A stretch of 64,000 nucleotides of DNA from NCBI GenBank assembly GCA_905221615.1, contig CAJNDT010005813.1, positions 377,501-441,500 of the forward strand. Direction: 5' to 3'. The DNA is from Symbiodinium sp. CCMP2592 (lineage: Eukaryota > Sar > Dinophyceae > Suessiales > Symbiodiniaceae). The position numbers were made by a program, and so were the translations under genes. Positions 4,383 through 31,513 of this stretch are shown here, piece after piece. The notes beneath the pieces were generated by a model. That model saw nothing but the letters and a program-made list of their open reading frames with translations. It was not told where the DNA came from and did not search any database. Within the stretch, counting starts at the first letter, position 1, and every line of letters begins with the position of its first letter.

Positions 4383-4715
4383 CGCAGCTAGGGTAGTTTT
4401 GGTAGCTTTTGGGTGCCGTTCCTCGGCCCCATACAGTACAAAGTAGGGTCAGCGCTCAGTGCGCTGGAGTTCCGTCCTGAGTAAGACATTCGTGTCCTCA
4501 GGATACGGGGTAGGGGACACTTAGTTTGCTGCCACTGAGCAGCCGTGGCGAAAGGTCACGTAGTTCGCTAGACAGAGAGACTCTCGTCTGCGGTTGAAAG
4601 TGGAAAAAAAGTGATGATCCGAGTCGCTTTTACTTCCAACGACTTCACAAGCTTGGTGCTGCGAGAGTTCTGCTTGACGAAAGCTGGGTCGCGAGCCTCG
4701 TTTTGGAAGCGGGGT
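4383..4715. other. Non-coding 3' region downstream of the LINE
   Basis: No convincing frame. It probably contains the LINE 3' untranslated region, the part normally recognised by the RT. A run of seven or more A occurs near 4603-4610 and could mark an insertion end, but no target-site duplication was found. Confidence 0.4.
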
Positions 4716-4905
4716 GAGGCGACCGGGAGGCTCGACGAAGGTTTCCCCTTCTCGCAACCAAGCTCTTGTGTGAAGGAAAAAGAGCGACGTCTGGATCCGG
4801 CAGATTGCGAATTTTTATCATTATCACTTTCGCCATAAATACGATTGGAATCGATTTGATATCTGCGCGAGAAACTTTAAGCACGGTTTGTGTTTGGAAA
4901 CATAA
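4716..4905 (+). repeat. 190 bp direct repeat, copy 1
   Basis: Begins TGAGGCGACCGGGAGG and ends GTTTGGAAACATAA. It is repeated 509 bases downstream at 5225-5417 with only a few substitutions and a 2-base insertion (GATTGCG versus GATTGTGCG). Copy 1 runs into the foldback sequence, whereas copy 2 runs into an ATG-started frame. Confidence 0.9.
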
Positions 4906-5011
4906 GTGCCATTTCACCGGAGGTGACAATCACCTTATTTTTCCAAACACAAAATTTCAAGAACCTTTCGGTTTTGAAATAGTGCTTGCGAAAGTTTCTC
5001 CTTTTCCGATT
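4869..5011. repeat. Foldback (inverted repeat) overlapping the end of direct repeat copy 1
   Basis: The inner arms TGTGTTTGGAAA (4889-4900) and TTTCCAAACACA (4940-4951) are exact complements, with further pairing through ATAAG..GTG and TCACC/GGTGA toward the loop. Outer arms GAGAAACTTTAAGCAC (4869-4884) and GTGCTTGCGAAAGTTTCTC (around 4983-5001) also pair, with an extra self-complementary segment of about 28 bases inserted in the right arm. The whole resembles a foldback or MITE-like structure. Confidence 0.75.
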
Positions 5012-5224
5012 TTGCACTTTTCCGTACGCATGTCATTTGTTTTACATTACATGTGTGGTGCTTGCGGTTGCTTTCACTTTGTGAGCCGCCGAAGCACTGG
5101 CTCTACGCTGGTGGAAGTTTTTGCCCGCCCTCCCGCCCCTTTTGTACCTCTTGGAGGTCGTGGGGTTGTGCTCGCATGGTGCTGTGGGCACCGTGGAGCT
5201 GTTTATGCACCTATCCCGGCCGTT

Positions 5225-5417
5225 TGAGGCGACCGGGAGGCTCGACGAAGGTTTCCCCTTCTCGCAACCAAGCTTTTGTGTGAAGGAAAAAGAGCGACGT
5301 CTGGATCTGGCAGATTGTGCGAATTTTTATCATTATCACTTTCGCCATAAATACGATTGGAATCGATTTAATATCTGCGCGAGAAACTTTAAGCACGGTT
5401 TGTGTTTGGAAACATAA
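5225..5417 (+). repeat. 190 bp direct repeat, copy 2, just upstream of an ORF
   Basis: Second copy of the 4716-4905 sequence. It ends three bases before the ATG at 5420, so it would form the 5' leader of that frame. The high identity points to a recent duplication or to terminal repeats of a small element. Confidence 0.9.
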
Positions 5418-11621: not shown

Positions 11622-12235
11622 CTTTAGTTCGTGGTGGCGAACAAGGCCTCAACTTGCTTGAGAGTTTCATCTCAGCTCGGTTTGCATGGGCGGCTCCTTC
11701 TGCGAGCTATTTGGAATCTTGCTTGGATTGCCGGGTGCTTGCTTCTTTCAAGCTCGTAGGCGCAAGTCGTCAGATCATGAATGCCTCCGTTCCCGGTGTG
11801 CGCCGAAGAGGAGATCCGGTGCCCATTTGATGCAGTAAGCATCGCGGGCACTAGAGCAGAGACCGAGCTCCACAAGCTCCATCGCGAAACTGCAGTTTAC
11901 TCATCTGAAGCTTGGGCTTTGACTCGCCTGCAGTGTGAACTTGAGAGACCGCTGCTCTCGGCTCAAAGGGGATGTATGAGGCCAAGGCCCCTGGGTGCGC
12001 TGGGAGCGTGGCCGGGTACTGCTGGGTTCTCAGAAAGCTGCAGAGCAGAGCACGTTTTTCTCCGTGTGCTCTCTATGCGTCTTTGAGGCCAGGGTCCAAT
12101 GCGCCGTTCAAGGCTCACGCGTGTGCTGGCTCCTGCGATGCGTCGTTATTGCTGCCTTTTGAGAGGCGCCTCCTTGTGGTCTCACTGGCTGTGGCTTTGG
12201 TGATCCATCTCAGGCCTGAGGTGTGTGTGTGTGTG

Positions 12236-12608
12236 TGTGTGTGTGTGAACCTCCCTAGCACATGGGAGCAGAGGGTCACTCCTACACTGTTTGCAATCTT
12301 TGCTTTTCAACTCAATCAGACATTAGACATTTACCAAATCAACTGTTGCAGGGGGACACAGCATGTCACTGGGACTGTGTCCAACGAAGCTACCAGTGAC
12401 ATGGGAGGAGAGGACTGATCATCCTCTTGTACCTGCATGGCAGCCCCCTGTGGTGCCAAGATTAGTCTGAGGACAGGCCCCCTGTGGTGTCCAGATTAGA
12501 CAAACAATTTTTGTACGGTTGCCGCAATCTGACAAACTTTTACAACATGAACAACATGCCTCTCTTTTTCCTCTTGCACTCGTACTCTTGGCCGAATCCA
12601 TCAGTGTG
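12236..12608 (+). repeat. Left terminal direct repeat (pseudo-LTR)
   Basis: Identical to 22739-23111 at an offset of 10503 bases, with no indel from AACCTCCC onward and a single C/T mismatch (CGTACTCTTGG versus CGTACTTTTGG). It is preceded by a longer TG run than the right copy. It contains an 11 bp perfect inverted repeat (CATGTCACTGG at 12362-12372, CCAGTGACATG at 12393-12403), an interleaved 8 bp one (GGACACAG 12354-12361, CTGTGTCC 12375-12382), and a duplicated CCCCCTGTGGTG motif. Confidence 0.95.
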
Positions 12609-12909
12609 ATCAGCGTGGGTCGATGAGACTCCAGAGCAACGGCTTTCCGTCATGGCGCCGTGGTGACCCTCCGGGGAGACCGGTGATGAACCGGGTGTTC
12701 AGCCTTCGTTCAGATCGTTCAGAATCTCCCGATGCTACTTTATCTCTCTCTCTCTGATGCTCGCATGTGAGTCTGACATGAGTGCAGGTGCAGTAAGGGA
12801 CGGCTAATGCAGTAAAGTGCGTCTAGTGAGCAGGTGCTACCTCTCTAGTCTGCCCCGTATTTTATCGCTTCTTTATTCCTCAGGGACTGCAAGGGCATGT
12901 GCATCTGAC

Positions 12910-15087
12910 ATGAGTGCAGACGTGGTAAAGATGTCTACAGCAAGTGAAGCAGCGCTCTCTCCGGAGAGTACTCGGCCCTCTCTTCCTTCTCTCCGTCTAC
13001 GACCTCTCAAATCAGTCCAGCAGGGACAATCAGGACAGCCTGCACTTTGCTTGTGCAACTGTGTTTGTTTCACCCGCTTCGTTGTAGCTATGTGGCCGGA
13101 TTATTTTGCCGCGCAGCCACCAGCAACACCATATGCACCAACAGCCCGACCGGTGCTTAATCAATTTCACCAGAACACCTGGGTACCGCAGTCTCAAAGC
13201 TACCCAGCAATGATGCCAACCGGCATTGCTGCCACTCAGCAGCCCACACTGCCGACACAACCCACTACGATTCCTGTTGAGCAAACGCACGGCTTCCCCA
13301 TGATGCCGTGTGGACACACCGCTCCTATTCCACAGCATCCGACGATCTACACACATCTCAGCACACCACAACCCCAGATGCCACAACAACCTCCACCCCA
13401 GCAATTCATGTCACAACACCCCACCCCGTTCATGAACCCTGCTCTTTTGCCTACCCATCCAACAGCTTTTCCCATGAGCCCATCTGCTTTGGCACAGCAT
13501 CAGGCCCAACCTACCACATTCAACCTTCCTTTTACACCACCTGCCCCACAACCCCAACTTGCACCTTGCAACATCCCTCCCACACAACCCATTCAACAAT
13601 CCCACATACCGCCGCCAACAACAATCCAACAAGCTCCACAACCACACCCCACCAGTGTTCCCACTGCCGATGCTGCACACACTGCCCCGCAGACACCGGC
13701 AATGACGCCCCAACAACAACCAACAAACACAGCCAACACCCCTTCCGTCAATACAGTGCCACCCGCACAACCACCCCCAGATACGGGATCGGCAGACACT
13801 GACCAGCTCGCAGCACGTACTTCTCCCCATCACCCTCCGCTGCCACGCAGACGACGGCACTCACCCACACGCAGCAGAACTCGCACCGTGAGCACTAGAC
13901 GTCGACGACACACACGCAGCCGAGCACGACCTGCAAGCAGCGGCAGACAGCACCGCCGACGCAGACACCACCGATCCCGCGACACTCGCAGAAGCCGTTC
14001 TCGCAGGGACACCAGGCGAGCTTCATCGACACCTCCTCGGACCTCGGTTGTGCTCCGCAGCTATTCTACAGTGCGTGATGATGATGCCAACAAGTGGCAT
14101 TACAGAGCCACACAGCCACGTCAAAGGCCACCTACCCCACCCAAGGTCCCACAAAAAACATTGGCTTCGCAGGTTCAGCGCATCGCCCTCCGCATCAAGG
14201 GCAGCCAAGCAGCACAACAGCAGCCCCCAACAAGCCAGGGCACATCCTCGCGCCAACAGCTTCGGCACAATCCCCCCAGCTCTGTTCGGACACCTGCTCC
14301 GACTTTCGATGCATCCACAACTGCTGCCCCATCGGGTCAGCCAACCCTCGAACAACTGGGCAAACAGAGCAGACCACCACAGATTGACGTGGCGCCTTTC
14401 TCTGAGCTTTATGATCATGAAAAGCCGACACCCCACGCTGTCGACATGGAGGAAGCGCACAAACTCGCCAAAACTTTGGGCGAGATAGCTGCTGACAGCG
14501 ATTTCAGGCAGGAGACTTTAGCCGAATTCGCGCATGCCGTATTACAGTCGGGCACGCGCTCAGCGTGCAACGAATTGGGGGCAACGCTGACGCCAATATC
14601 GGACGGCGTGCATACTATGTTATTCATCCCGTGGGCTGGAGAGACTCGCAGAGCATTCGGCACTCGTGCCACTGACCCACCAGGGGAAACATACATCTAC
14701 ACCGCCGGACACGGCACGAGCATTGCAAGTGCCGCACGCATAATGCGTGAGGACTTGGTCCGCCCAAGTTCTGTCAGCCATTGCTTCGACGACAAGTCCT
14801 ATCCACCCATTCCCTCTTGCGTCATATACGGGAATGCGACCCCAGGAGATGTGTCGGAAAGCACGGTACATATAGTTACCGATCAATGTACGCGGCGGCC
14901 CAAGGGCCAACAGGGAGTGATCGTCATCGGGACAATACGGACTAAGTATCAGCATTACAAGATGACGTATCGGGACATGTACAGAGAAGCCTTCATCGTG
15001 GGGCGAAAGGGTGTTGTGCGGACCCCGGAGAAGTGGGGATTCCACTCCGGGCACTTCAGCATCGTTGGATTCGGCCTCATTCAGTGA
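12910..15087 (+). CDS. Pro/Gln-rich, RS-rich protein with C-terminal HGT-motif domain
   Basis: The first in-frame ATG is at 12910 (another at 13090 starts MWPDYFAAQ and may be the real one); the frame is open upstream to 12817. The first 270 residues are Pro/Gln/Thr-rich. A block of RS/RR/RH dipeptides follows at about 13846-14030, resembling an RNA-binding or nuclear-targeting RS domain. The last 180 residues are globular and contain YTAGHGTSIASAARIM, then L-V-R-P and later VIYGNATPG. This recalls the HGT-type motif of ADP-ribosyltransferase-like folds, but the remaining catalytic residues cannot be assigned. Its early segment MPTGIAATQQP resembles MPTGIIGTA in the next ORF, so the two may share an origin. 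Role in the element unknown. Confidence 0.6.
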   Translation: MSADVVKMSTASEAALSPESTRPSLPSLRLRPLKSVQQGQSGQPALCLCNCVCFTRFVVAMWPDYFAAQPPATPYAPTARPVLNQFHQNTWVPQSQSYPAMMPTGIAATQQPTLPTQPTTIPVEQTHGFPMMPCGHTAPIPQHPTIYTHLSTPQPQMPQQPPPQQFMSQHPTPFMNPALLPTHPTAFPMSPSALAQHQAQPTTFNLPFTPPAPQPQLAPCNIPPTQPIQQSHIPPPTTIQQAPQPHPTSVPTADAAHTAPQTPAMTPQQQPTNTANTPSVNTVPPAQPPPDTGSADTDQLAARTSPHHPPLPRRRRHSPTRSRTRTVSTRRRRHTRSRARPASSGRQHRRRRHHRSRDTRRSRSRRDTRRASSTPPRTSVVLRSYSTVRDDDANKWHYRATQPRQRPPTPPKVPQKTLASQVQRIALRIKGSQAAQQQPPTSQGTSSRQQLRHNPPSSVRTPAPTFDASTTAAPSGQPTLEQLGKQSRPPQIDVAPFSELYDHEKPTPHAVDMEEAHKLAKTLGEIAADSDFRQETLAEFAHAVLQSGTRSACNELGATLTPISDGVHTMLFIPWAGETRRAFGTRATDPPGETYIYTAGHGTSIASAARIMREDLVRPSSVSHCFDDKSYPPIPSCVIYGNATPGDVSESTVHIVTDQCTRRPKGQQGVIVIGTIRTKYQHYKMTYRDMYREAFIVGRKGVVRTPEKWGFHSGHFSIVGFGLIQ

Positions 15088-15293
15088 TGTTGCTTTCTTC
15101 TTTCTTTCTTCCGTGTCTTCCTGTAACTTTCTAGTACTTTTTCTTCCAGGCCTGAATCCCTGTACACATAGTTGTTTGCAATCAGGCATTCGCTCCGACC
15201 CCGCTTTTGAGCCAAAGAAGATTCGATGCAGCTGCATGCTGGATGCCCCGCACAAGTTGATGTGGACGCTCAAGCCAACCATGTTGCTCATGC

Positions 15294-16910
15294 ATGTTCC
15301 ATGTGCAGCTTTTGCAGTCGCAGGCAACTGTAGTGCCCCACTGTGCAACCATGTACAAGCCGACACAGCCTCAGTGGCAGACAACAATGCCAACAGGCAT
15401 CATCGGTACAGCAATCAGTACCATGCAGCGTCAAACCACCTCGACCAGCAGCACCCCTTTGCACCCGATCTCCCCACCACCAGGGATCCACAACATCCCA
15501 CCACACACCTCATCGCTAGCCCCAACTACTTGGGGTTCAGCTCACACTTACAGCCACAACAACACATTCCCACCTTTCCCTCCACCCCCTCCCCCACCCC
15601 ACCTGTTTCCCGGCCCAATTTCACCCACCACACTGCCAACCCTCACACCTGCCACTCCCCAACACACATTTGTGAGTCCATCTTCGATGACGACTCAAAA
15701 CCCCAGCATTTCGTCACATACAGTACCTCAGACCACCGCCGCAACCCAACAACAGCAACACCCCAATCCCACACATGCAAATCCCCAGATACCAAACGAC
15801 TTCGTTCAAACACCAGAGCATTGGGACAACAGGCAGCTTTTTGGCCTCAACCTACCCAAACACATTCAATCCACACCACATTCAGTGCATAACCGCACAG
15901 CAGGCATGCCAATCGCAACAGCACCATTGGTCGCATTTTTGCGACACAATTGGTCTTCCTACTGGCTGCGGTACGCTGCACATGGCTTCGACATCCATCT
16001 TACATGCAGCAAACACGTCAGCGAAGCCGTCTTTACCACTGAACTTATGGGTCAACTCCGAGCAAGGAGAATTGATCTGGACCAAGCAGCCACTGCATTC
16101 TGCTGGCAAGAAAAGCTCACACTCGCAAAACGACCAGCAATGTCACACCTCATCAAGGAATTGGTGTTGTACCTGCAAGAGTTGCAGGACCAGTACAATG
16201 ACGGCAACAAAAAGGACAAGCAAGATGTTAAAGCAGACACAGACAACACACAATCGCAACCCACCGAATCTCCAACACCACCACAATCCGGCAAATCACA
16301 ACCTCATCTCCCACTTCAACCTTCGCAGCCGACAGAGACAGACACTCTGGCGGCCCATCGCATCAGCGACCTTGAAGCACGACTTTCAACAGCACTGGAG
16401 ACAATCGAAACTCTCCGTGCTCCCGACGCACACAATGAGGCACCCAGCACACCAGCATCAAAGAAACCAAAACGAACCACCGCGCCCAGCACTCCCATCA
16501 ACACGCCCTCCCCACCACCTCTCTCACTTTCCACAATTGAGATCTCCCCCACCACAACCACCCGTGGACAAAAACGAGCCACCATCGATGACCCTACACA
16601 CACTGACACCAGGCCTACCACTGAGGGCCTATCCCCTTCACCACAACCGCTGCAGAACAAGACAACAACCCGTTACACGCTTCCCCAGCATCGTCATCCA
16701 CCACAGGTATGCACTTCCCGGGACGCTCCACTCTGGGCGCCAAGCGACAGAAGCAGTCAACTCTTACACCAACGAAGGCGGCACCCCTTGATCCCAAGAT
16801 GGATCCCCAGCGCATCTTTCAGCAGCCTACAAAAGCCAGTGTCTGGTTTCAAGATCACTTCACTGGCGTTCACTCCGGATCCGGCATCACCAGATGGTTT
16901 GGTGCCATAA
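15294..16910 (+). CDS. Gag-like Pro/Thr/Gln-rich protein, first frame
   Basis: ATG at 15294 (a second at about 15351 precedes YKPTQPQ). The N-terminal 180 residues are Pro/Thr/Ser/Gln-rich. A compact globular segment of about 120 residues at about 15795-16190 (PLVAFLRHNWSSYWLRYAAH through LVLYLQELQDQ) could be a capsid-like or RNA-binding domain, but no family is recognised. A second low-complexity linker with KKPKR and a short coiled-coil (SDLEARLSTALETIETL) follows. After about 16625 the frame still reads but its composition worsens, while the -1 frame becomes protein-like and continues to 17113. A frameshift, an intron or a mutation around 16625-16705 is therefore likely. Confidence 0.6.
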   Translation: MFHVQLLQSQATVVPHCATMYKPTQPQWQTTMPTGIIGTAISTMQRQTTSTSSTPLHPISPPPGIHNIPPHTSSLAPTTWGSAHTYSHNNTFPPFPPPPPPPHLFPGPISPTTLPTLTPATPQHTFVSPSSMTTQNPSISSHTVPQTTAATQQQQHPNPTHANPQIPNDFVQTPEHWDNRQLFGLNLPKHIQSTPHSVHNRTAGMPIATAPLVAFLRHNWSSYWLRYAAHGFDIHLTCSKHVSEAVFTTELMGQLRARRIDLDQAATAFCWQEKLTLAKRPAMSHLIKELVLYLQELQDQYNDGNKKDKQDVKADTDNTQSQPTESPTPPQSGKSQPHLPLQPSQPTETDTLAAHRISDLEARLSTALETIETLRAPDAHNEAPSTPASKKPKRTTAPSTPINTPSPPPLSLSTIEISPTTTTRGQKRATIDDPTHTDTRPTTEGLSPSPQPLQNKTTTRYTLPQHRHPPQVCTSRDAPLWAPSDRSSQLLHQRRRHPLIPRWIPSASFSSLQKPVSGFKITSLAFTPDPASPDGLVP

Positions 16911-17113
16911 AAGGCATCAGCGACAAACAAAAAACACAGGTAAAAAAGTACCTTGACATTGTTGCTTCGGAATTCCCTTCACTCAGCAACTCACAAGAGC
17001 AAACACTGCAGACCGCTGCAGTCGCCTGGGGTGTCCCACCTAAAGCCATCGACAAATTTGGCTCCCCAGCACTGATCAAACTCGTCGCCATCATCAGTCA
17101 GATGACAGAGTGA
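16625..17113 (+). CDS. Gag-like protein, second frame, ending in UGA before the RT
   Basis: Lies in the -1 frame relative to the preceding ORF and opens after a TGA at 16622. It reads through an Ala/Ser-rich linker and a basic patch (GAKRQKQ) into a folded C-terminal domain of about 100 residues (WFQDHFTGVHSGSG ... ALIKLVAIISQMTE). There is an ATG at 16709. The stop TGA at 17111-17113 is followed by C and is in the same frame as the downstream RT. I see no classic slippery heptamer in the overlap; CAG|GTATG at 16703-16710 could instead be a splice donor. Confidence 0.55.
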   Translation, partial: GPIPFTTTAAEQDNNPLHASPASSSTTGMHFPGRSTLGAKRQKQSTLTPTKAAPLDPKMDPQRIFQQPTKASVWFQDHFTGVHSGSGITRWFGAIKGISDKQKTQVKKYLDIVASEFPSLSNSQEQTLQTAAVAWGVPPKAIDKFGSPALIKLVAIISQMTE

Positions 17114-19891
17114 CTCCGGCAGTACTTGATTCAACACCGACAGACACTTGATCACACAACAATTTTCCGACAAAAACAATTCAAGAACATCACACGCATT
17201 CTGGATCAAGGTAGATCCATCTTACAATTCGTCGCACCTTTGGCAGAACCAGTCTCCACACAATTCTATCAAATCATACTCTGGCTTCAAGGCCTAACTT
17301 TGTTACTTCGCACACAGCATTTCTACCTCAAACATGAGGAAGGACATTTCTCCAACCTACAGAGACTGTTTGCACATTCAAACATTTCTTTTACATCGTA
17401 CACACTCTCTTTCTTTCGTCAGCCACAGGTGGTATACTGCAGAGTCACCACGCAACAACCTTTTCGTGGCTACGTTTACATCGGCAGCACAAGTCACTCT
17501 CTCACACAACGAGAGGGCACACGCAATCCAAAATTCAAGCAACTTCAACAACACAAAATTGTACAAGCCGAACTTTCTTTACGATGGTGGCATAAACACA
17601 AATGCTACCACCAATACACACCAATTGTACTACAAGCCAACATACCCACCGAGCAATTAGAAGCCACGGAGAACACTCTCATACAACACCACCAATCCAA
17701 GCTCAACTTTCCCTACATCACATCACACATGAAAGGAGCTTTTTCCGGCTTCACAAAAGCAGCCAACAACAAGCACAACGGCACAGCCACTTTATGGGCG
17801 AAGCAACGCCGAGGCAAACTACACCACTCCATTCGAAGCTTCACTAACTCCACCTTATTCAACACCAGAAAACAGGCATGGACCACAGTCTCACATCTTA
17901 CTTCCAACACTCGCACCAGATTCGACACAACAAAACAACTGCTTCGCTCAGACACACCAGCAGCCACAGTGTACGCTTTACACAAACTCTCAAACAACTT
18001 ACCACGACGCGACCGCAGACACGCTCACAAAGCGCTCAACACCGTCTTCAAGAAGCGACGACTTAAACCACCTCCGGTCACAAAACCCATTTACCTACAG
18101 CCCCTCTTACACCCCACCTTCACCCAACAACTACGACAATTTTTGCGCTCTCAGTTAACAAGCAACAAACAACACATTCCACCATTCCATCTCCCCAGCA
18201 CAAAACCCGTCTTCAAGAAACACCCACCCATGCAACAACTTCTACACAATTGGCGCGACGCCCACACTACATGGCAACCCGATTCACCACCACCCTGTAC
18301 CTGCTCACCATTACACTCACAAGTTCCCCAGGAGCATATATTCCACAATCACATTGCTATCCAACTTGCAGAACTACAACCACAACATCAATTTTTGGCA
18401 TACTCCGGCAAAAGCAATTGCCTTCAGAAGCCCACACAGTTGGCTTCACAATTATGCCGAGCCATACGCACATGGCATCGATACTATGGACTGCCTTACA
18501 ACCATCAAACTGCAAAGCAGTTTGTATCTGAACAAATACCACAACACAACACACACTGCAATCAACACAACATACTACAGGTTAAGATGATCAAGCAAGT
18601 CCAACACAAAATACCATCGGGCATCATCCATTGCGAAGATCACTTTCCGAACCGACTCATGTGGTACTGCCCAGCACTATATCACCGTGCCATACACAAC
18701 ACTTTTTTAGACAAGGAGATCTTTCGGATCTCGCAGCACCAACCTCTACAACACCACTTTGATGTCTACACAGACGTCCGCAGTCTTCTACCAGCCTACA
18801 TATGGGCTTTTCCACAATGGGGACGCATCCCACGCGCCTACATTTTACCGAAAAGAAAGAAGCAATTCACAAAAGGCCGCCCTATCGTGGCGTTCATCGA
18901 CACCATGGGCAGGAAATTGTGGGAAGCCTTAGCAGACGTACTGCAGCTGATGACTTTTCAAGCATGTCCAAACTCCTTTCACCAAGGAGACGGGATAACA
19001 CAGCTCAAACAAACAGCACTCTTCCTGCATCAGCGCAGGAAATTACACGATTCAACAGATTACATCCTGTACAACCAGGATTTGGCTGGCTTCTTTACAT
19101 CGGTCGATCAGAGCCGGTTTCTTTCAGCGTACAGCATTATGGTTCGATGGTACAGAGAGAAGAACCCACTACACTCTTCCAAATTCTTCATTGACCACTC
19201 ACAGAAAGACCCCACACATCGAGTCCACAGGGGCAAAAGCAGACAAAAGAAGCAAGAAGCCTCTTCCGGCAACAAACTTTGCATACAATTACAACATATA
19301 CCACAACTCATCATTGCAGTGCTCCGACTCAACTATTTCACTGTTTGTACATCACTTATTGAGCAATTTCGCGGTGCACCTATGGGCTCGCCCTGCAGCC
19401 CGGCCCTATGCAACATCGTGGTTGCCGTCGAAGAACAGTGTTGGCACCACACATACAAACAACTTTTCACGAATCACAAGCATTTTCCAGACCACAACAA
19501 GCAGGATCAAGCTGTCTTTTTTGCTACCAGATACGTCGACAACCGCGTCCTTCTTTTACCTGCACAGCTGACCCGACTGCCTCCTTTTGCACAGCTTACT
19601 GACGCATCTTTCTACAAACCACCGGTTCAGCTTGAAACTGAACCGGCCAACATTTTCCTGGGTTTCGCCATAAACCCTCTGCACAGCAGCCTTACGCATC
19701 AATGCACTTTGCACAAGGCGGATATTTTACACCCACAGTCAGCCACCTCTGTTGCAATACTTCGCAGCAGTTTTCAGGCCCGCACACGCATGGTACGCAG
19801 AGTGACAACACCATGCAGCGAGGCCACATCAGCCATTCGAGCCATGCGCGATCTCTACATCGCTGCCGGCTATACTGATCAACAGCTGTAA
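17114..19891 (+). CDS. GIY-YIG endonuclease plus Penelope-like reverse transcriptase
   Basis: Catalytic core of the element. Residue numbers count from the TTG at 17126. Nuclease domain: VVY (102-104), YIG (118-120), catalytic Arg candidates at 129/133, Glu in ATENTLIQ (182) and Asn in LNFPY (194), the full GIY-YIG order. RT domain: basic finger ILPKRKKQFTKGRPIV (573-588), motif A QDLAGFFTSV with Asp 652, motif B FRGAPMGSPCSPALCN (748-763), motif C RYVDN (802-806) in place of YVDD, and FLGF (844-847). The C-terminal helix ends GYTDQQL. MGSP.SP..CN and RYVD are typical of Penelope/TERT-type RTs. An N-terminal nuclease is the permuted order known from the Naiad/Chlamys PLE group. A Cys/His cluster (CTCSPLH...H...H, 391-409) may bind zinc. 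The first in-frame ATG (residue 202) lies after the nuclease, so expression by readthrough of the UGA at 17111 is likely. Confidence 0.85.
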   Translation, partial: LRQYLIQHRQTLDHTTIFRQKQFKNITRILDQGRSILQFVAPLAEPVSTQFYQIILWLQGLTLLLRTQHFYLKHEEGHFSNLQRLFAHSNISFTSYTLSFFRQPQVVYCRVTTQQPFRGYVYIGSTSHSLTQREGTRNPKFKQLQQHKIVQAELSLRWWHKHKCYHQYTPIVLQANIPTEQLEATENTLIQHHQSKLNFPYITSHMKGAFSGFTKAANNKHNGTATLWAKQRRGKLHHSIRSFTNSTLFNTRKQAWTTVSHLTSNTRTRFDTTKQLLRSDTPAATVYALHKLSNNLPRRDRRHAHKALNTVFKKRRLKPPPVTKPIYLQPLLHPTFTQQLRQFLRSQLTSNKQHIPPFHLPSTKPVFKKHPPMQQLLHNWRDAHTTWQPDSPPPCTCSPLHSQVPQEHIFHNHIAIQLAELQPQHQFLAYSGKSNCLQKPTQLASQLCRAIRTWHRYYGLPYNHQTAKQFVSEQIPQHNTHCNQHNILQVKMIKQVQHKIPSGIIHCEDHFPNRLMWYCPALYHRAIHNTFLDKEIFRISQHQPLQHHFDVYTDVRSLLPAYIWAFPQWGRIPRAYILPKRKKQFTKGRPIVAFIDTMGRKLWEALADVLQLMTFQACPNSFHQGDGITQLKQTALFLHQRRKLHDSTDYILYNQDLAGFFTSVDQSRFLSAYSIMVRWYREKNPLHSSKFFIDHSQKDPTHRVHRGKSRQKKQEASSGNKLCIQLQHIPQLIIAVLRLNYFTVCTSLIEQFRGAPMGSPCSPALCNIVVAVEEQCWHHTYKQLFTNHKHFPDHNKQDQAVFFATRYVDNRVLLLPAQLTRLPPFAQLTDASFYKPPVQLETEPANIFLGFAINPLHSSLTHQCTLHKADILHPQSATSVAILRSSFQARTRMVRRVTTPCSEATSAIRAMRDLYIAAGYTDQQL

Positions 19892-20014
19892 GCAAAACAC
19901 TGTGCCAAGTTGCCGTGCGTGTGTCCAGAGTCATGCAACTTTGCAACATGAGAGCCGCCTTGTTTCAACACAGTGCTTCCCGCAGCCATTTACAGGGTTA
20001 ACTGAGGCATCATC

Positions 20015-20506
20015 ATGTATAAAAGTGCCATGACTGGCAGATTGCAGCCCAGCCACAAAGCGCTGAGCGGCCGTCCTCGGCCATCCATCTCCAAGCATAG
20101 CAGACGCCGCAACGAGCAACCTGCGGTTGGCAGCCACAATCCACAGCCGGCGCTTTTGCGCTCTCAGTTCCTACGTGTTGCAGAAGACGAAGATTTCCAA
20201 GATTACCAAGAGCAACACCAAGATCCGGAAGAACAGCAGGACGCAGCAGTGGCTGCACCGGCGACCCCGCCATTTCCACCTCCGCATCACCCTGATCCGG
20301 ATTCATCGACTGAGATTATGGCAGCAATAACGCAGTTTCACAATTCGTTGCTTGAATCGAATGCCAAACTCGAGCGCCTGATACAACAGGCTACAACGGT
20401 GCTGACTACTCAACACGAGGCTACCACGGCGATCCTCGCCTCGTGCAAACAGCAGCTCGACGTACTCGAAAGCCTCATCAGGCAAAACGCGCCTGATTGG
20501 TCGTGA
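20015..20506 (+). CDS. Element small ORF: basic N-terminus, C-terminal coiled coil
   Basis: ATG at 20015, 163 codons (a second ATG at 20030). The N-terminus is Arg/Lys/Ser-rich, followed by a Pro-rich and acidic linker, then a heptad-like segment (ITQFHNSLLESNAKLERLIQ, continuing to residue 157) likely to form a coiled coil. No family recognised. It is the first of a set of small plus-strand frames between the RT and the right repeat, packed with short gaps, and it shares the coiled-coil end with the next ORF. Confidence 0.5.
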   Translation: MYKSAMTGRLQPSHKALSGRPRPSISKHSRRRNEQPAVGSHNPQPALLRSQFLRVAEDEDFQDYQEQHQDPEEQQDAAVAAPATPPFPPPHHPDPDSSTEIMAAITQFHNSLLESNAKLERLIQQATTVLTTQHEATTAILASCKQQLDVLESLIRQNAPDWS

Positions 20507-20526
20507 ATATGCTGATAAGGTACGCT

Positions 20527-20537
20527 GGTATAAAAAG
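20527..20537 (+). promoter_or_regulatory. TATA-like sequence upstream of the 86-codon ORF
   Basis: TATAAAAAG at 20529-20537 lies about 120 bases before the ATG at 20656; a similar TATAAAAG occurs at 20018-20025. Dinoflagellate genes generally lack TATA boxes, so this could be an element-specific promoter or chance in A-rich sequence. Confidence 0.2.
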
Positions 20538-20655
20538 AGCCAGGTAGTGCACATTTCTCGCATTTCAACACATGTTGCTTTCAGACACACACCACAACTT
20601 TGCCTTCTGAAGTTTTGCCTCAGAGTGACACCTATCGGAATCCCGACATCGAGCC

Positions 20656-20916
20656 ATGAGCGAAGCATCTCTTCCGACCAACACAGTGACTACAGATTCG
20701 CCACCCGTCGATGAGTCACGACGTGAAGCTCTCTCCGCGGCCCTCATGGAGATTTTGACACAGCATCGGGACTATGATTCCGAAACTGGAAGTGAACCTT
20801 CCACATTCAGTGACGAGGCTCTACGCGACCAATTAGCTGAGTTTATTCTGCAAACAACCCGGCAGATCACAGAGCTAAAGCAACGAGTGGAAAGACTCGA
20901 AGCTTCGCAACAATAG
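20656..20916 (+). CDS. Element small ORF: 86-residue acidic coiled-coil protein
   Basis: ATG at 20656, stop TAG at 20914-20916. The N-terminus is Ser/Thr-rich and acidic; the C-terminal 30 residues (LAEFILQTTRQITELKQRV and onward) show clear heptad spacing of Leu/Ile/Val, like the end of the preceding ORF, so the two may dimerise. The next ATG is 10 bases after this stop. No family recognised. Confidence 0.5.
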   Translation: MSEASLPTNTVTTDSPPVDESRREALSAALMEILTQHRDYDSETGSEPSTFSDEALRDQLAEFILQTTRQITELKQRVERLEASQQ

Positions 20917-20926
20917 GTGATCAACC

Positions 20927-21325
20927 ATGTTCATACCACCATCGGGTGCTTCGCAGAGGACGGTAAAAACAACGATTGTCGTTGTTGCCAACTGTGACAG
21001 TCACTGCACTCACTTCACATATGTTTGGCATGCAGCGATTGATGCACTTTTTCCCGCAGCATTTTGCAAAACAACCAGTTGTGTTAGCACCATGGAACAA
21101 CGCACCAGATCGCGATCTCCCACGGCATCACAATGGAGATGGCATTGGGCCACTAACGGCTCTTCATGGTGGCGGGAGTACTTTATCGCATCTCAAGAGT
21201 GGATACGAAAGCATGCGGAGCAACCTGATCAGCGTCCGACATCAACGCCTCCGACCCAAAAGGAGACAGTATCTACTACATCAACTCCTACATCCAACAA
21301 GAGAAAGCGGTCAAGAACTCCGTGA
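20927..21325 (+). CDS. Element small ORF: basic, Trp-rich segment
   Basis: ATG at 20927, only 10 bases after the previous stop; an internal ATG at 21092 begins MEQRTRSRSPTASQWRW and may be the actual start. The distinctive part is WRWHWATNGSSWWREYF, followed by a Thr/Ser-rich basic tail ending KRKRSRTP, which looks like a nuclear-localisation signal. No family recognised. Confidence 0.4.
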   Translation: MFIPPSGASQRTVKTTIVVVANCDSHCTHFTYVWHAAIDALFPAAFCKTTSCVSTMEQRTRSRSPTASQWRWHWATNGSSWWREYFIASQEWIRKHAEQPDQRPTSTPPTQKETVSTTSTPTSNKRKRSRTP

Positions 21326-21614
21326 GCAACATTGCTGAGTTGACAATTAGATGCACATTTGCTGCCCCTGGCAGCCAACAACCACACAGCAAAGCTGTGC
21401 TGCGAACTCCATCATCCCTGATGAGGTTCAACATTAAGAGCACCATATTGAAAGGTCATGCCGGTCGGTGAGGTTGCTCAAGTGATGTATCTTTGTACAT
21501 CTCTCTCTCTCTCTCTTCTGAAGATCAGCGTATGCACACGCCTTAATGCAGTTGTGACTCCGCAGCCATTTCTCAGAACTACAGTTGTTGAAACATATTT
21601 AGGATCGCACACAG

Positions 21615-22139
21615 ATGGACGAGGACGACGACAGCAGCCTATGGGGATCCGAAGAGATTGATGCCTTCCTGAGGAAGGATGACACCACCACATCCTCCCA
21701 TGCAGTCAGTCACACACACAAGCAAAAAACAAAGCACACAACGAAGACAAAAAAGAAGAAAGACAACAAAGACAAAAAGGACAAAACAGTCATGAAAACA
21801 AAGAAAACACGCAACATCTCACCAGCATCCCAATCCACAACACAGCAACGACGCCAACATCCACATACTACAAGACGAAAGAGGACACACTCTTCGCACT
21901 CAACATCATCAGCGTCACCTACGGCAACTTCACACATGGCTGAGGACGCACACCGATCTCCATCGCGAGATCCTTGGTCTTCTGACTCGATTGCACCTTA
22001 CGATATTGTGCATCCTACTATTCAGCATAAGCGGTCCAAAACCGCTTGTGCAAAAATGCTGGTACGTGCAGGTTTTAGATGTAGATGCCATTTCAAGATC
22101 ATGAGTGACTGTCCCAACAAACTCGCTGTTGGATCCTAA
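21615..22139 (+). CDS. Element small ORF: acidic start, Lys-rich middle, Cys-containing end
   Basis: ATG at 21615, 174 codons, TAA at 22137-22139. It begins MDEDDDSSLWGSEEIDAFL, then has a long Lys/Thr/Asp-rich low-complexity stretch, a Ser/His/Arg-rich linker and a short conserved-looking tail (KTACAKMLVRAGFRCRCHF) with three Cys and a His. Probably a nucleic-acid-binding accessory protein; no family recognised. Confidence 0.45.
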   Translation: MDEDDDSSLWGSEEIDAFLRKDDTTTSSHAVSHTHKQKTKHTTKTKKKKDNKDKKDKTVMKTKKTRNISPASQSTTQQRRQHPHTTRRKRTHSSHSTSSASPTATSHMAEDAHRSPSRDPWSSDSIAPYDIVHPTIQHKRSKTACAKMLVRAGFRCRCHFKIMSDCPNKLAVGS

Positions 22140-22304
22140 TACTCAGGACGGATTAGGGCTGCAAGATCCGCTAAACGTGACAAAAAAGCCTGCGCATGCG
22201 AGTGTCAGCACGACACCACTTGGTTGTTTCTCCTGAGCACACAGCATATCCATGTTGTTTTGCATTCCTTGTTCAAGCGTTTGTCGGTTGGTAGCAGCAA
22301 AAAT

Positions 22305-22652
22305 ATGACAAAGAGAAAGGCTGCCGAGGCCGGCCTTCCATGGTACTCTATGGCAGGACAATGTTTTCGGATGACTGTTGAAATTCCACCCGACCGCATC
22401 ACCAGAGACAAGCACATGCTCTTACACGTGGTGCTTTGTCTGGGTGACAACGTTCTACAAGCTCGCAAGATCTTCTCCTACCGCATCAAGGAGATCACCG
22501 GCAGAACTCCTAAAATCCCAGCTTTCTTCTTCGAACAAAACCGTCGACGACTACATGATTGGGATTCAGTCACCACATTAGCCACGTTGAAGCCGGTGCT
22601 TTTTGTTAGAACCTGTTCGGATCAGGAAATACGACAATCACCCGATCGCTAG
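22305..22652 (+). CDS. Element small ORF: 115-residue globular protein
   Basis: First ATG at 22305 (the frame is open further upstream but without ATG), TAG at 22650-22652. The composition is balanced: MTKRKAAEAGLPWYSMAG, then FRMTVEIPPDRITRDKHM, then a hydrophobic core (LLHVVLCLGDNVL). It does not look like a shadow frame and is the most globular of the small ORFs. No family recognised. It ends about 70 bases before the palindrome that borders the right terminal repeat. Confidence 0.45.
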   Translation: MTKRKAAEAGLPWYSMAGQCFRMTVEIPPDRITRDKHMLLHVVLCLGDNVLQARKIFSYRIKEITGRTPKIPAFFFEQNRRRLHDWDSVTTLATLKPVLFVRTCSDQEIRQSPDR

Positions 22653-22738
22653 TGACAGCGAGAAAAGTGCGCCATTCACTCCTTTTGCCACGCATCAGAC
22701 CTTTCACTCTACTTGAAGCATGTACGCCCCATTGGGGC

Positions 22739-23111
22739 TGTGTGTGTGTGAACCTCCCTAGCACATGGGAGCAGAGGGTCACTCCTACACTGTTTGCAAT
22801 CTTTGCTTTTCAACTCAATCAGACATTAGACATTTACCAAATCAACTGTTGCAGGGGGACACAGCATGTCACTGGGACTGTGTCCAACGAAGCTACCAGT
22901 GACATGGGAGGAGAGGACTGATCATCCTCTTGTACCTGCATGGCAGCCCCCTGTGGTGCCAAGATTAGTCTGAGGACAGGCCCCCTGTGGTGTCCAGATT
23001 AGACAAACAATTTTTGTACGGTTGCCGCAATCTGACAAACTTTTACAACATGAACAACATGCCTCTCTTTTTCCTCTTGCACTCGTACTTTTGGCCGAAT
23101 CCATCAGTGTG
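22739..23111 (+). repeat. Right terminal direct repeat (pseudo-LTR)
   Basis: Second copy of the terminal repeat, with the same internal hairpins. It is preceded directly by the palindrome GCCCCATTGGGGC (22726-22738), which marks the internal border of the element. The right flank begins TTGCATTCTGATC. Confidence 0.95.
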
Positions 23112-24770
23112 TTGCATTCTGATCTCCTTCGACTGCAGTGCAAAGCTGCGCAGGCTTGGGTCCCTCTTCGTGACCCTCGGCCGTGCAGAAGGCAAGCGAT
23201 GCGATCACAACGTAGAGTTTTCAGCTGGGAGCAATCGCAGGCAAGTGCAGCCATTGTGGGAGTGTGCGTGTTAATGTCAACAGTGTCAGCTACAGAAGTA
23301 CACGTTAGAGAATCTATCCGTCGGGACAGCGCCTTCAGGTCCACGTCGGTTGCTGCTGGGAGCAGTGGGCAGTTTGCTAGGCCTGGACTGTGGTTTTCAC
23401 AGATGGATAAAATTGGAATCATAACTCGGAATCAACTGTTGTGACCGCCGTAGTTGGCGTCAGTCGTCGTCTTGTAATGCTGCTCTACGACCCAAAGCTT
23501 GTGGTTGAGGTGTAAGGCCGGTGTTTATGCGCGAGTCGGCACCCGCGATTCGAGCACGTCGATGCAAGCAGCAGTAATTCAAGCACCCCACTTGCTTTGG
23601 CTCGTGCACCGCCGATTCAAGCAGCAACCAGATTCAGGGACACGCGCGCTGTTCAGCCACGAGTCAATGACCCTTCGGGTTTGGTTTCGGGTTACTCTGG
23701 GGGATCTAGGGATAGGTATTGAGGGTTCGGAGTATCTCAGGCTCGGAAGAGCCAAGTATTTGAAGTTCTAGGTTCCGGGCTTCAGAGTCTTAAGCTTTGA
23801 GATTCGGGATAGCATTGATAGAGCATTCGGGTTTGAGGGTTTAGGTTTGCTTGGTATCTCAACATTAGTCCTGAAGTCATATTGAACACCATAATTGCAG
23901 AGCTTGCCTCTTTCCGCTTTATGCCTTTAAAACCTTAGGTTTCTTTGAGAGCTTGAGAAACCGCATTTAGCATTGTTCGCACTTCATGTCTCTTGAAGGC
24001 TTATCATAGACCGGGCTCATTTCCGATTATATCTCAAGGTAGGGTGGGAGGGAGGGAAAGTGCTTGACCTCCTGCGAAACTTATGAATCTGCCGAATCTG
24101 CCCTTATCAAAGGATGCACGCATCGGACTGCACATGTGACGTGGGGCTTTGACTCTTCTGGATCCCCGGTGAGGCTGTGCCAACAATCCAGGAGTATGAA
24201 GACATCTTCGAGCCGAGTTATTGTCATCGATGATGTGAGTAGTCTACCATCCAGCTAGAAGGCCTCGTTTTCTCAGCCCGCTCCGCGAATCTTTGTTCTA
24301 GTGCACGCTTGGTTCTTCCAGCGCGCAAATCGGTTTATTGCCTTAACCCTGCACACAAAACGTCTCTGGGCTGCAAAACGAATGCTTGTTTGTTGTCATC
24401 GGTGTTGTGATCATCTTTGGCTCATGTGAAGTCGTTTGTGGCCGCAGGTTTTTCCCGCCAGTCTGCGCAGGCTTCGATCTTATCGTCCTTTTCTCGTAAC
24501 AAGCTTTGGCTGTGACCAATGGAGGCGCAGAGCAGCTTCAGCACAGAGAAATGGGATGGTTCGTTTCTGGACACCAGCAGAGACTGCAAGGAGAATGCCT
24601 GGTGCCCAGAAATGGCATTCCACTGTCACCGTCTTTATGACTGGTCTGGCAGGCTGAGTTAGGGACCCCAGAAGGTGTGCAGAACTCAGGAGCGTCAAGA
24701 CGGGTAGCAGGGTGATTAGAGTCTGACTGCCTTGAGACTTGCCTGCGGAACATTGATGCGCTGGGCGGGT
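23112..24770. other. Intergenic stretch with degenerate telomere-like tract
   Basis: No recognisable gene. About 23680-23860 is rich in GGGTT, GGTTT and TTAGG words, ending GAGGGTTTAGGTTTGC, resembling decayed TTTAGGG repeats. The remainder is unremarkable mid-GC sequence with short frames. Confidence 0.4.
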
Positions 24771-30649: not shown

Positions 30650-31513
30650 ATGGCTGGCACCGCGGTTTTCTCAGCGGCAATGCAAGCAAGTTCAGGGCCA
30701 AGCTCACCTGCAGGTGCCTCACGAGCGCAGGATCGTGATCGAAACTTGGACAGAGAGGCGGATAAGATCGAGGAAGGTGTCAAGCAGCCGCAGCAACACG
30801 TCACTTCGAAGGTGGTTGGGGCCACACAGTCAGCGTTCCAAGCAGCGCGGGACACCAATCAGAAATACGGGGTCACCGACAAGATCGGTGAAGGTGCGAA
30901 GGTTGCATACACGAAGGCGAGAGACTTCGAGCAGCAGCACCACGTCACTTCGAAGGTGGTTGGGGCCACACAGTCAGCGTTCCAAGCAGCGCGGGACACC
31001 AATCAGAAATACGGGGTCACCGACAAGATCGGTGAAGGTGCGAAGGTTGCATACACGAAGGCGAGAGACTTCGAGCAGCAGCACCACGTCACTTCGAAGG
31101 TGGTTGGGGCCACGCAGTCAGCGTTCCAAGCAGCGCGGGACACCAATCAGAAATACGGGGTCACCGACAAGATTGGTGAAGGGGCGAAGGTTGCATACAC
31201 CAAGGCGAGAGACTTCGAGCAGCAGCACCACGTCACTTCGAAGGTGGCTTCTGGGCTTAAAGCCGGGGTTAGTGGTGCTGCATCGGCGGCTGGGTCGCTG
31301 GCAAAGGGTTCGAACCCATTTACCCACAGTGCAACAGAGGTGGAGGCCCAGGGGATCAGGGAGGGAGCAGGTGCTGCTTCTGCACATTTGCTGTGCTCGC
31401 TTACTACTCGTCAATCTAGTGACTAGTGCTTGTTGTGCTCATACTATTCCTCAGCGCAGGCCAACTCCCGGAATCCTTTCCGGGAGGCGCGCAATGGCAA
31501 TCCGTTCCGGTGA
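30650..31513 (+). CDS. Helical tandem-repeat protein with C-terminal NPF motifs
   Basis: The open frame (ATG at 30650; open further upstream) holds three 48-residue repeats HVTSKVVGATQSAFQAARDT ... VTDKIGEGAKVAYTKARDFE and a partial fourth. Each repeat is two amphipathic helices with YGVTDK / HHVTSK turns. The frame runs through AKGSNPFTHSATE to 31339, followed by GTGGAGG. A GT-AG intron (31340-31459) would then join, in phase, an exon reading ANSRNPFREARNGNPFR and TGA at 31511-31513. That gives three NPF motifs, the ligand of EH domains in endocytic traffic. Without splicing the frame ends at 31426. The function is unknown; helices of this type often bind membranes. The upstream part is unsure. 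Confidence 0.6.
30797..31250 (+). repeat. 144 bp in-frame tandem repeat, 3 full copies plus a partial
   Basis: Units start at 30797, 30941, 31085 and 31229 with exact 144-base spacing. Units 1 and 2 are identical by eye over most of their length; unit 3 has a few synonymous or conservative changes. This is a recent expansion inside a coding exon. Confidence 0.95.

Follow-up and report, generated by a model that had tools for sequence, protein, structure and literature searches.

A probable multi-gene Penelope-like retrotransposon family with an endonuclease-like region at (TG)n microsatellites of the dinoflagellate Symbiodinium

The present study concerns a 64,000-nt stretch of contig CAJNDT010005813.1 (C4967) of the dinoflagellate Symbiodinium sp. 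CCMP2592, hereafter called the window, and a 10.9-kb unit within it, which starts near base 389,700 of the contig in the 1.098-Gb assembly (5383 contigs). The unit is bounded by direct terminal repeats and contains a chain of plus-strand open reading frames (ORFs). It probably (at about 0.8) represents a multi-gene, endonuclease-bearing family of Penelope-like elements (PLEs) inserting at (TG)n microsatellites. The frames are not a product of chance, because the entire unit is found in colinear form elsewhere in the genome, and purifying selection is clear for six of the eight ORFs that recur.

Recurrence of the unit and selection on its genes

A sequence-only reading of the window had noted two near-identical direct repeats. 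These are borne out: the repeats at 12236-12608 and 22739-23111, with a spacing of 10503, agree in 372 of 373 positions. The same reading had proposed searches with the repeat and with each ORF. In the window's own genome, such searches found the unit again, colinear, with the same ORFs between the repeats and with their order and spacing unchanged. The result which that reading had named as adverse, reverse transcriptase (RT) alone between the repeats of other copies, came out the opposite way, since the other ORFs recur alongside it.

The outline of the element in the window is given below. The start and stop codons of the eight ORFs were checked on the window sequence. N and S are nonsynonymous and synonymous variable positions among copies, and pN/pS relates them to what the mutation spectrum of the element itself predicts, every frame being classed; EN stands for endonuclease, LTR for long terminal repeat and aa for amino acids.

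12236..12608, + strand: left terminal repeat (pseudo-LTR)
12609..13089, + strand: leader from the left repeat to ORF1, colinear among copies and including a CT tract (12743-12755)
13090..15087, + strand: ORF1, 665 aa, with a Pro/Ser-rich, RS-like N-terminal part and a conserved C-terminal domain with an HGT motif (14425-15084)
15351..17113, + strand: ORF2, 587 aa in its relative L049, ending at the UGA
17111..17113, + strand: in-frame UGA followed by C (UGA-CUC), in the window and in 15/15 fetched copies covering the site
17114..19891, + strand: EN-RT, 925 codons, with YIGST at residue 122, CTC at 395 and RYVDN at 806
20015..20506, + strand: ORF4, 163 aa; 4 N, 7 S; pN/pS 0.24 versus 0.68 and 4.35 in shifted frames
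20656..20916, + strand: ORF5, 86 aa; 5 N, 6 S; pN/pS 0.35 versus 1.83 and 0.54 in shifted frames
21092..21325, + strand: ORF6, 77 aa, basic; 11 N, 13 S; pN/pS 0.32 versus 3.06 and 1.34 in shifted frames
21615..22139, + strand: ORF7, 174 aa, with an acidic N-terminus followed by a Lys-rich part; 18 N, 27 S; pN/pS 0.26 versus 1.89 and 1.51 in shifted frames
22305..22652, + strand: ORF8, 115 aa; 4 N, 11 S; pN/pS 0.15 versus 2.71 and 2.16 in shifted frames
22739..23111, + strand: right terminal repeat (pseudo-LTR), with a pseudoknot at 22857-22906 and the terminal sequence CCATCAGTGTG

The repeat search of the genome yielded 42 matches from the best 40 of 728 candidates. As in all searches of the window's own genome, the best-ranked places only were scored (40-150 in each), and the counts are lower bounds, biased to close copies. 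The compared set comprises stretches of ten contigs, which hold 11 copies besides that of the window, and a twelfth, partial copy (C2806). All complete copies fetched have direct terminal repeats. Seven of the 11 further copies match the entire unit at 97-99.4%, and copies C277a and C3358 match it at 94-98%, with repeats at 88%; copy C5320 is devoid of 20186-22296, and C277b is limited to roughly the first 6 kb. The interiors of the copies diverge from that of the window by 0.6-4.2%, and the copies diverge by up to 7.1% within a segment. The stretch at 19.5-21.5 kb is the least variable, for which constraint and recent shared ancestry are both possible.

The 70-base flanks differ among the copies, except for C424 and C1902, where only TG is seen on both sides and the sites are indistinguishable. 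It is hardly credible that all copies go back to one locus, present as haplotigs or segmental duplicates, and are an artefact of duplication or assembly. Short contigs do carry some of the copies, repeats are found next to one another at C424, C2268 and C277, and the sites of C424 and C1902 would suit such an origin, but the remaining flanks, the divergence within segments and the seven pseudoknot variants found in coherent pairs (see below) speak against it.

Searches with single ORFs covered the best 49 of 1313 candidates for RT (46 of the 49 free of stops), the best 150 of 359 for the C-terminal part of ORF1 (97-100% at the amino acid level, 148 of 150 free of stops) and the best 150 of 618 for ORF8 (95-100%, none with a stop). 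Matches were regarded as linked if, among the matches listed, they lay on the same strand and no more than 400 bases from the expected distance. ORF1 is thus placed with at least 41 of the 49 RT matches, the other eight having no partner among the matches listed, and ORF8 with at least 38 (eight without a listed partner, three at another offset). At least 102 of the 150 ORF1 matches have ORF8 downstream at about 7.86 kb (7.76-7.98 kb), while 40 have no listed partner and eight show another offset.

The selection test gave a pN/pS of 0.07 for the C-terminal domain of ORF1 (5 N, 31 S), of 0.12 (15810-16256) and 0.04 (16640-17110) for ORF2 and of 0.17 for EN-RT (58 N, 134 S), as compared with 1.3 to 8.5 in the shifted forward frames of these ORFs. 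One antisense frame of ORF1, ORF2 and EN-RT is low as well (0.17 to 0.58), which is expected where third positions coincide. For the ORFs starting at 20656, 21092, 21615 and 22305, 16 further 3' pieces were added to the test, in which two spacers gave 0.9 to 1.6. The ORFs at 20015 and 20656 display weak signs of selection. Of the nine or more plus-strand frames that had been counted from the letters alone, eight are supported as genes or likely genes, but the frames of 549 and 162 aa form one gene, ORF2, in relatives: in the window a one-base frameshift near 16.63 kb interrupts ORF2, as opposed to 12/12 other copies covering the site. The extra N-terminal residues of ORF1 in the window accompany a 2-base length difference at 12982; these bases are absent in 10 of 11 copies, and the eleventh has two more.

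The gag-like and HGT-motif proteins of the sequence-only reading thus correspond to frames that recur under selection, ORF2 and ORF1, but neither has a noteworthy match in Pfam or NCBIfam. By its position, ORF2 may be Gag-like. The HGT motif of ORF1 is one that we take to recall ADP-ribosyltransferases; an ADP-ribosyltransferase fold was considered for ORF1, found no support in Pfam or PDB and is not claimed.

Relatives of the proteins were found in ENA. The RT has three, at 53-62% identity. A chimeric query, made from parts of ORF1 and of ORF2, retrieved 20 proteins, of which eight are ORF2-like and twelve ORF1-like by inspection, the former at 34-53% over the alignment and the latter at 35-56%. 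A search with the whole ORF1 protein had found no relative, low-complexity words having probably swamped the query, as the chimeric query later found relatives. The RT relatives P0001 and P0002 and the ORF2-like P0007 and P0017 are listed with longest contigs of the same sizes, 66033 and 261736, and on the strength of these listings we take them to share contigs; the contig of the third RT relative (15500) has no ORF2-like partner among the matches listed. Ten ORF1-like proteins on ENA contigs (P0012-P0016 and P0019-P0023, at 35-42%) maybe represent another clade of such elements. Viral contigs scanned with RT, the RT alignment, ORF2 and ORF1 contained no relative.

These data bear on the view that an ordinary small PLE, encoding RT only, captured host genes once and that the extra ORFs are passengers. 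PLEs and LTR elements can indeed transduce DNA between terminal repeats, as stated in an excerpt of PMC6431247. However, the extra ORFs recur in the examined subfamilies at fixed spacing and under selection, and ORF2 relatives are listed on contigs matching in size those of RT relatives. The passenger explanation is therefore largely refuted and very improbable.

The EN-RT protein, its upstream UGA and the class of the element

The EN-RT protein matches RVT_1 (E=1e-4) and a group II intron RT model (1.6e-4), both matches being short. It contains the motifs PK..K....GRPI, DLAGFFTSV, GAPMGSPCSPALCN and RYVDN, a set that we take to be PLE-like; RYVDN was also read in three copies of other variants. 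The N-terminal region shows VYC...YIGST, with E (in TENT) and N (in KLN) further on, a pattern that is conserved among the aligned proteins and may represent a GIY-YIG motif. A CTC (CxC) lies between the EN-like region and RT and is common to P0001 and P0002, P0003 having CTT at this point. The GIY-YIG plus RT protein named by the sequence-only reading stands as regards its RT part, with the RVT_1 match and PLE-type motifs; its GIY-YIG part is recognised by motif, with no profile support.

It seems improbable that the unit is an LTR retrotransposon or a retrovirus-like element with true LTRs. The near-identical direct repeats, alike within copies, and the Gag-Pol-like in-frame stop described below would fit such an element, but Pfam showed no integrase, protease or RNase H family (E<=1) among the ten translated ORFs that were scanned. 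The GIY-YIG-like motif and the PLE-type RT motifs do not fit it either, and by eye there is no polypurine tract before the right repeat, where a hairpin and a fixed TG tract are found instead. Among structured RNAs, no Rfam family reached the gathering threshold in the window, and no hammerhead was seen at E<=5 in 12200-12950 or 19880-23130.

ORF2 and EN-RT lie in one frame in relatives (C2806), parted by the UGA. The ORF2 relatives P0008, P0011 and P0017 terminate at this point too, with (Q/T)M(T/S)E. From stop to stop, the RT frame measures 925 aa in 48 of the 49 scored genome matches; a 2592-aa open frame of one RT match was rejected, being caused by runs of N in C2806. The first Met of the RT frame in the window is residue 206, past the EN-like motif at 122. 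The shared frame, the constant UGA and the lack of an early Met make readthrough the simplest route to the EN. Readthrough of the UGA would produce ORF2 and a minor ORF2-EN-RT fusion, a layout resembling Gag/Gag-Pol.

It is less probable, though by no means negligible, that EN-RT is made by another route, such as selenocysteine insertion, an unusual start or reinitiation, with the element otherwise as described. Selenoprotein PLEs of the Naiad type have reportedly been described by Craig et al. in 2021. Models of the selenocysteine insertion sequence (SECIS) are included in Rfam, no family of which reached its gathering score in the window, and the lack of a Met before residue 206 likewise counts against another route. 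Besides readthrough of the UGA, expression may involve host spliced-leader trans-splicing, by which the remaining ORFs would possibly be separated. The dinoflagellate spliced leader has 429 exact matches in the genome versus 0 for its reversed control, which marks the host as a dinoflagellate. The CT-rich tracts at 12743-12755, before ORF1, and 21500-21519, before ORF7, would suit candidate spliced-leader acceptor sites.

Ends, target sites and the pseudoknot of the repeats

The following features mark the ends of the element and the structured part of its repeats.

12221..12247, + strand: TG microsatellite at the left repeat, 27 nt, on the target (host) side, overlapping the first 12 nt of the repeat
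12354..12403, + strand: H-type pseudoknot of the left repeat, with stems S1 (12354-12361/12375-12382) and S2 (12362-12372/12393-12403) and the conserved junction AACGAAGCTA (12383-12392)
12409..12427, + strand: hairpin S3 after the pseudoknot, with the loop CTGATCA (GACG in other variants)
22726..22738, + strand: boundary hairpin GCCCC-ATT-GGGGC before the right repeat, with a variable loop, in 22/22 right-type repeats (by eye)
22739..22750, + strand: element-encoded TG tract, exactly 12 nt in 22/22 right-type repeats

Right-type repeats were recognised by the element interior or the hairpin before them. All 25 left repeats examined adjoin a TG/GT tract that is 18 nt or longer when phase slips are tolerated, and no perfect (TG)10 or (CA)10 occurs elsewhere in the window outside the element. 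Of 21 flanks past the right end, CCATCAGTGTG, 13 are TG-rich, defined by a value of 0.45 or more for TG/GT steps over 30 bases, with the limit chosen after viewing the flanks and three internal rows left out. An insertion bias for microsatellites is evident from the left-side tracts and these right-flank counts. At C424 and C2268, the TG tract also holds a second repeat, head to tail with the first. Within one copy, the two repeats differ at 0-6 of 358-373 positions, with a mean of 0.87% in the ten copies compared; transposition looks recent, the clock being rough.

Pieces related to the repeats were also observed. A 72% relic of the terminal repeat, an older relative, lies just past the right end of the C3 copy (C3:638089-638217, L022). 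A short derivative that runs from C277:60051 to about 58770 (L027) consists of a left-repeat start, a segment 81% like window positions 12560-12993, the boundary hairpin and a right-repeat start. It is probably non-autonomous, and its composition hints at cis signals in the repeat and the leader. Tandem elements sharing a repeat at C277 were considered and rejected; the intervening stretch includes a short derivative.

The repeats of the subfamilies diverge most at the pseudoknot, which has the order S1a-S2a-S1b-AACGAAGCTA-S2b, with 8 bp in S1 and 10-12 bp in S2. Across seven variants, stems are swapped together with their partners. In the nine distinct rows, which include the recombinant C2633 with broken stems and the variant E, one column out of register in S2 and counting against the pairing, 92.1% of cells are paired (63.3 in shuffles and 31.5 to 38.2 in slides) and 47 are doubly changed (14.0 in shuffles, 4 to 8 in slides). 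When S3 is added and seven representatives are taken, one hand-chosen row per variant, with C2633 left out and four in-register S2 pairs countable, 99.2% of the counted cells are paired versus 57.5% in shuffles, and 53 are doubly changed (15.8 in shuffles, 1 to 8 in slides). In S3, all six pairs are changed on both sides among the seven variants and 100% are paired; variant F has one S2 mismatch by eye. For variant H, at first observed without S2b, this strand was expected to be TTGCGTAATGG, and the pieces L070 and L071 read ATGCGTAATGG, in agreement at 10/11; this expectation was formed before the sequence was fetched and written down after.

The framed pseudoknot motif has 356 exact matches in the genome versus 0 for its reversed control. 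Among 100 listed places of the motif there are 33 same-strand pairs 9.8-11 kb apart, two of which share a member. The same variant is carried by both members in 30 of the 33 pairs, point variants being counted as the same (shuffle mean 5.7, largest 14 in 10,000), and three pairs, at C65, C397 and C411, are mixed. RT was found with all seven variants: A in the window, B in L076, C in C102, D in C36 and C908, E in C150, F in L075 and H in L074.

After S3 (12439-12499 and the right copy), two hairpin modules were noted by eye, both having the loop GCCCCCTGTGG and then AGATTAG, with stems varying by module and variant. A ribozyme like that of hepatitis delta virus was considered and set aside: the strand order of S1 and S2 recalls P1 and P2, but no P3 or P4 was seen and no Rfam match was found.

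It can be proposed that the RT complex recognises the pseudoknot, while the EN would nick the TG microsatellite, leaving a free (CA)n 3' end that may pair with the RNA 3' end ...CAGUGUG and prime cDNA synthesis. At the 5' end of the RNA, the cDNA would switch to a right repeat, either in the same RNA molecule or in a different one, and copying would run to the 12-nt UG tract and be stopped by the GCCCC/GGGGC hairpin. The cDNA might then pair through its (CA)6 end with the TG strand of the target, so that the left repeat is rebuilt and the two repeats of a copy are alike. A template switch ending at the hairpin is favoured by the constant length of the tract, by the hairpin itself and by the agreement of repeats within pairs, and the mixed pairs at C65, C397 and C411 look like template switches between subfamilies. 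We infer readthrough, priming, template switching and the functions of the proteins from the sequences.

Several points weigh against the proposed reading, in addition to the bias of the genome counts to close copies. GIY-YIG is assigned by motif and was absent from the Pfam matches and the PDB profile search, and AlphaFold models had a pLDDT (confidence score) of 37 for ORF1 and 31 for the EN-like region, with no usable structure. Motif C of the RT reads YVDN rather than YVDD, and membership of PLEs would follow from motifs and domain order. Eight of the 21 right ends, that of the window included, have no TG-rich flank, and a target-site duplication is not definable inside a microsatellite. 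The repeats of C345, C1902 and C277a differ by 1.1-1.7%, versus 0.9-1.4% between the interiors of these copies and that of the window. Recombination between copies could also yield alike or mixed repeats.

Elsewhere in the window, a tandem repeat was noted at 30786-31247, where a 174-nt reference is matched three times at 97-99% identity by copies that overlap and are spaced 144 nt apart, and a near-identical duplication at 4715-5417, with a spacing of about 510 nt.

Relation to known elements and significance

The closest likeness seems to be with the N-terminal EN+ PLEs Naiad and Chlamys, which Craig et al. (in MBE, 2021) reportedly described as possessing an N-terminal GIY-YIG, a CxC, pseudo-LTRs, no hammerhead and insertion at microsatellites. 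The present element has pseudo-LTRs and microsatellite sites, no hammerhead was found in it, and going by motifs it may also correspond in its N-terminal GIY-YIG-like region and the CxC before RT. Compared by motifs, it differs in its length of 10.9 kb, its seven further ORFs, the UGA between ORF2 and EN-RT, the covarying pseudoknot and the dinoflagellate host.

The canonical PLEs (Penelope/Poseidon) resemble it in having pseudo-LTRs and structured RNA in the repeats and, going by motifs, a GIY-YIG EN with a telomerase-like RT, but, according to excerpts of PMC11167929, they have a single ORF, a C-terminal EN and a hammerhead, and reverse transcription starts inside the RNA, at a site non-homologous to the cut DNA. 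The Terminons of bdelloid rotifers are likewise giant PLE-related units with accessory ORFs, in which a structured RNA stands beside a short simple repeat pairing with the matching DNA repeat; as given in excerpts of PMC6431247, they are without an EN, telomeric, and carry hammerheads and accessory exonuclease, esterase and Rep genes. The present element, in contrast, has an EN-like motif and TG-microsatellite sites, and no 3'-terminal hammerhead was found in it.

Chlamys PLEs have been described in the brown alga Ectocarpus, which, like the present dinoflagellate host, belongs to the TSAR supergroup, and an excerpt of PMC12477816 states that PLEs were unreported in TSAR before. A PLE scar has been described in corals, as mentioned in an excerpt of PMC9506716. 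Among the papers listed on PLEs in dinoflagellates, Symbiodiniaceae and Symbiodinium and on GIY-YIG retrotransposons in dinoflagellates, no title or abstract opening describes such an element.

A bolder view, which we hold only as a doubtful conjecture, is that the element applies a telomerase-like logic to interstitial DNA: a ribonucleoprotein with a pseudoknot, a short UG template and a telomerase-related RT would attach a virus-sized, 10.9-kb gene set to TG microsatellites. The fast, compensated turnover of the stems might then provide private tags for the RT of each subfamily, or reflect an undescribed self-cleaving ribozyme replacing the hammerhead.

PLEs, which have a common ancestry with telomerase, belong to the least understood retroelements. 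If the proposed reading is true, their range would come to include dinoflagellates, where the gene set equals that of a retrovirus or a Terminon in richness, yet comes with an endonuclease, and a Gag-Pol-like stop would be shown in a PLE. The seven stem variants and 356 exact motif matches in one genome would constitute a natural comparative data set, and template recognition and the rebuilding of pseudo-LTRs would become testable.

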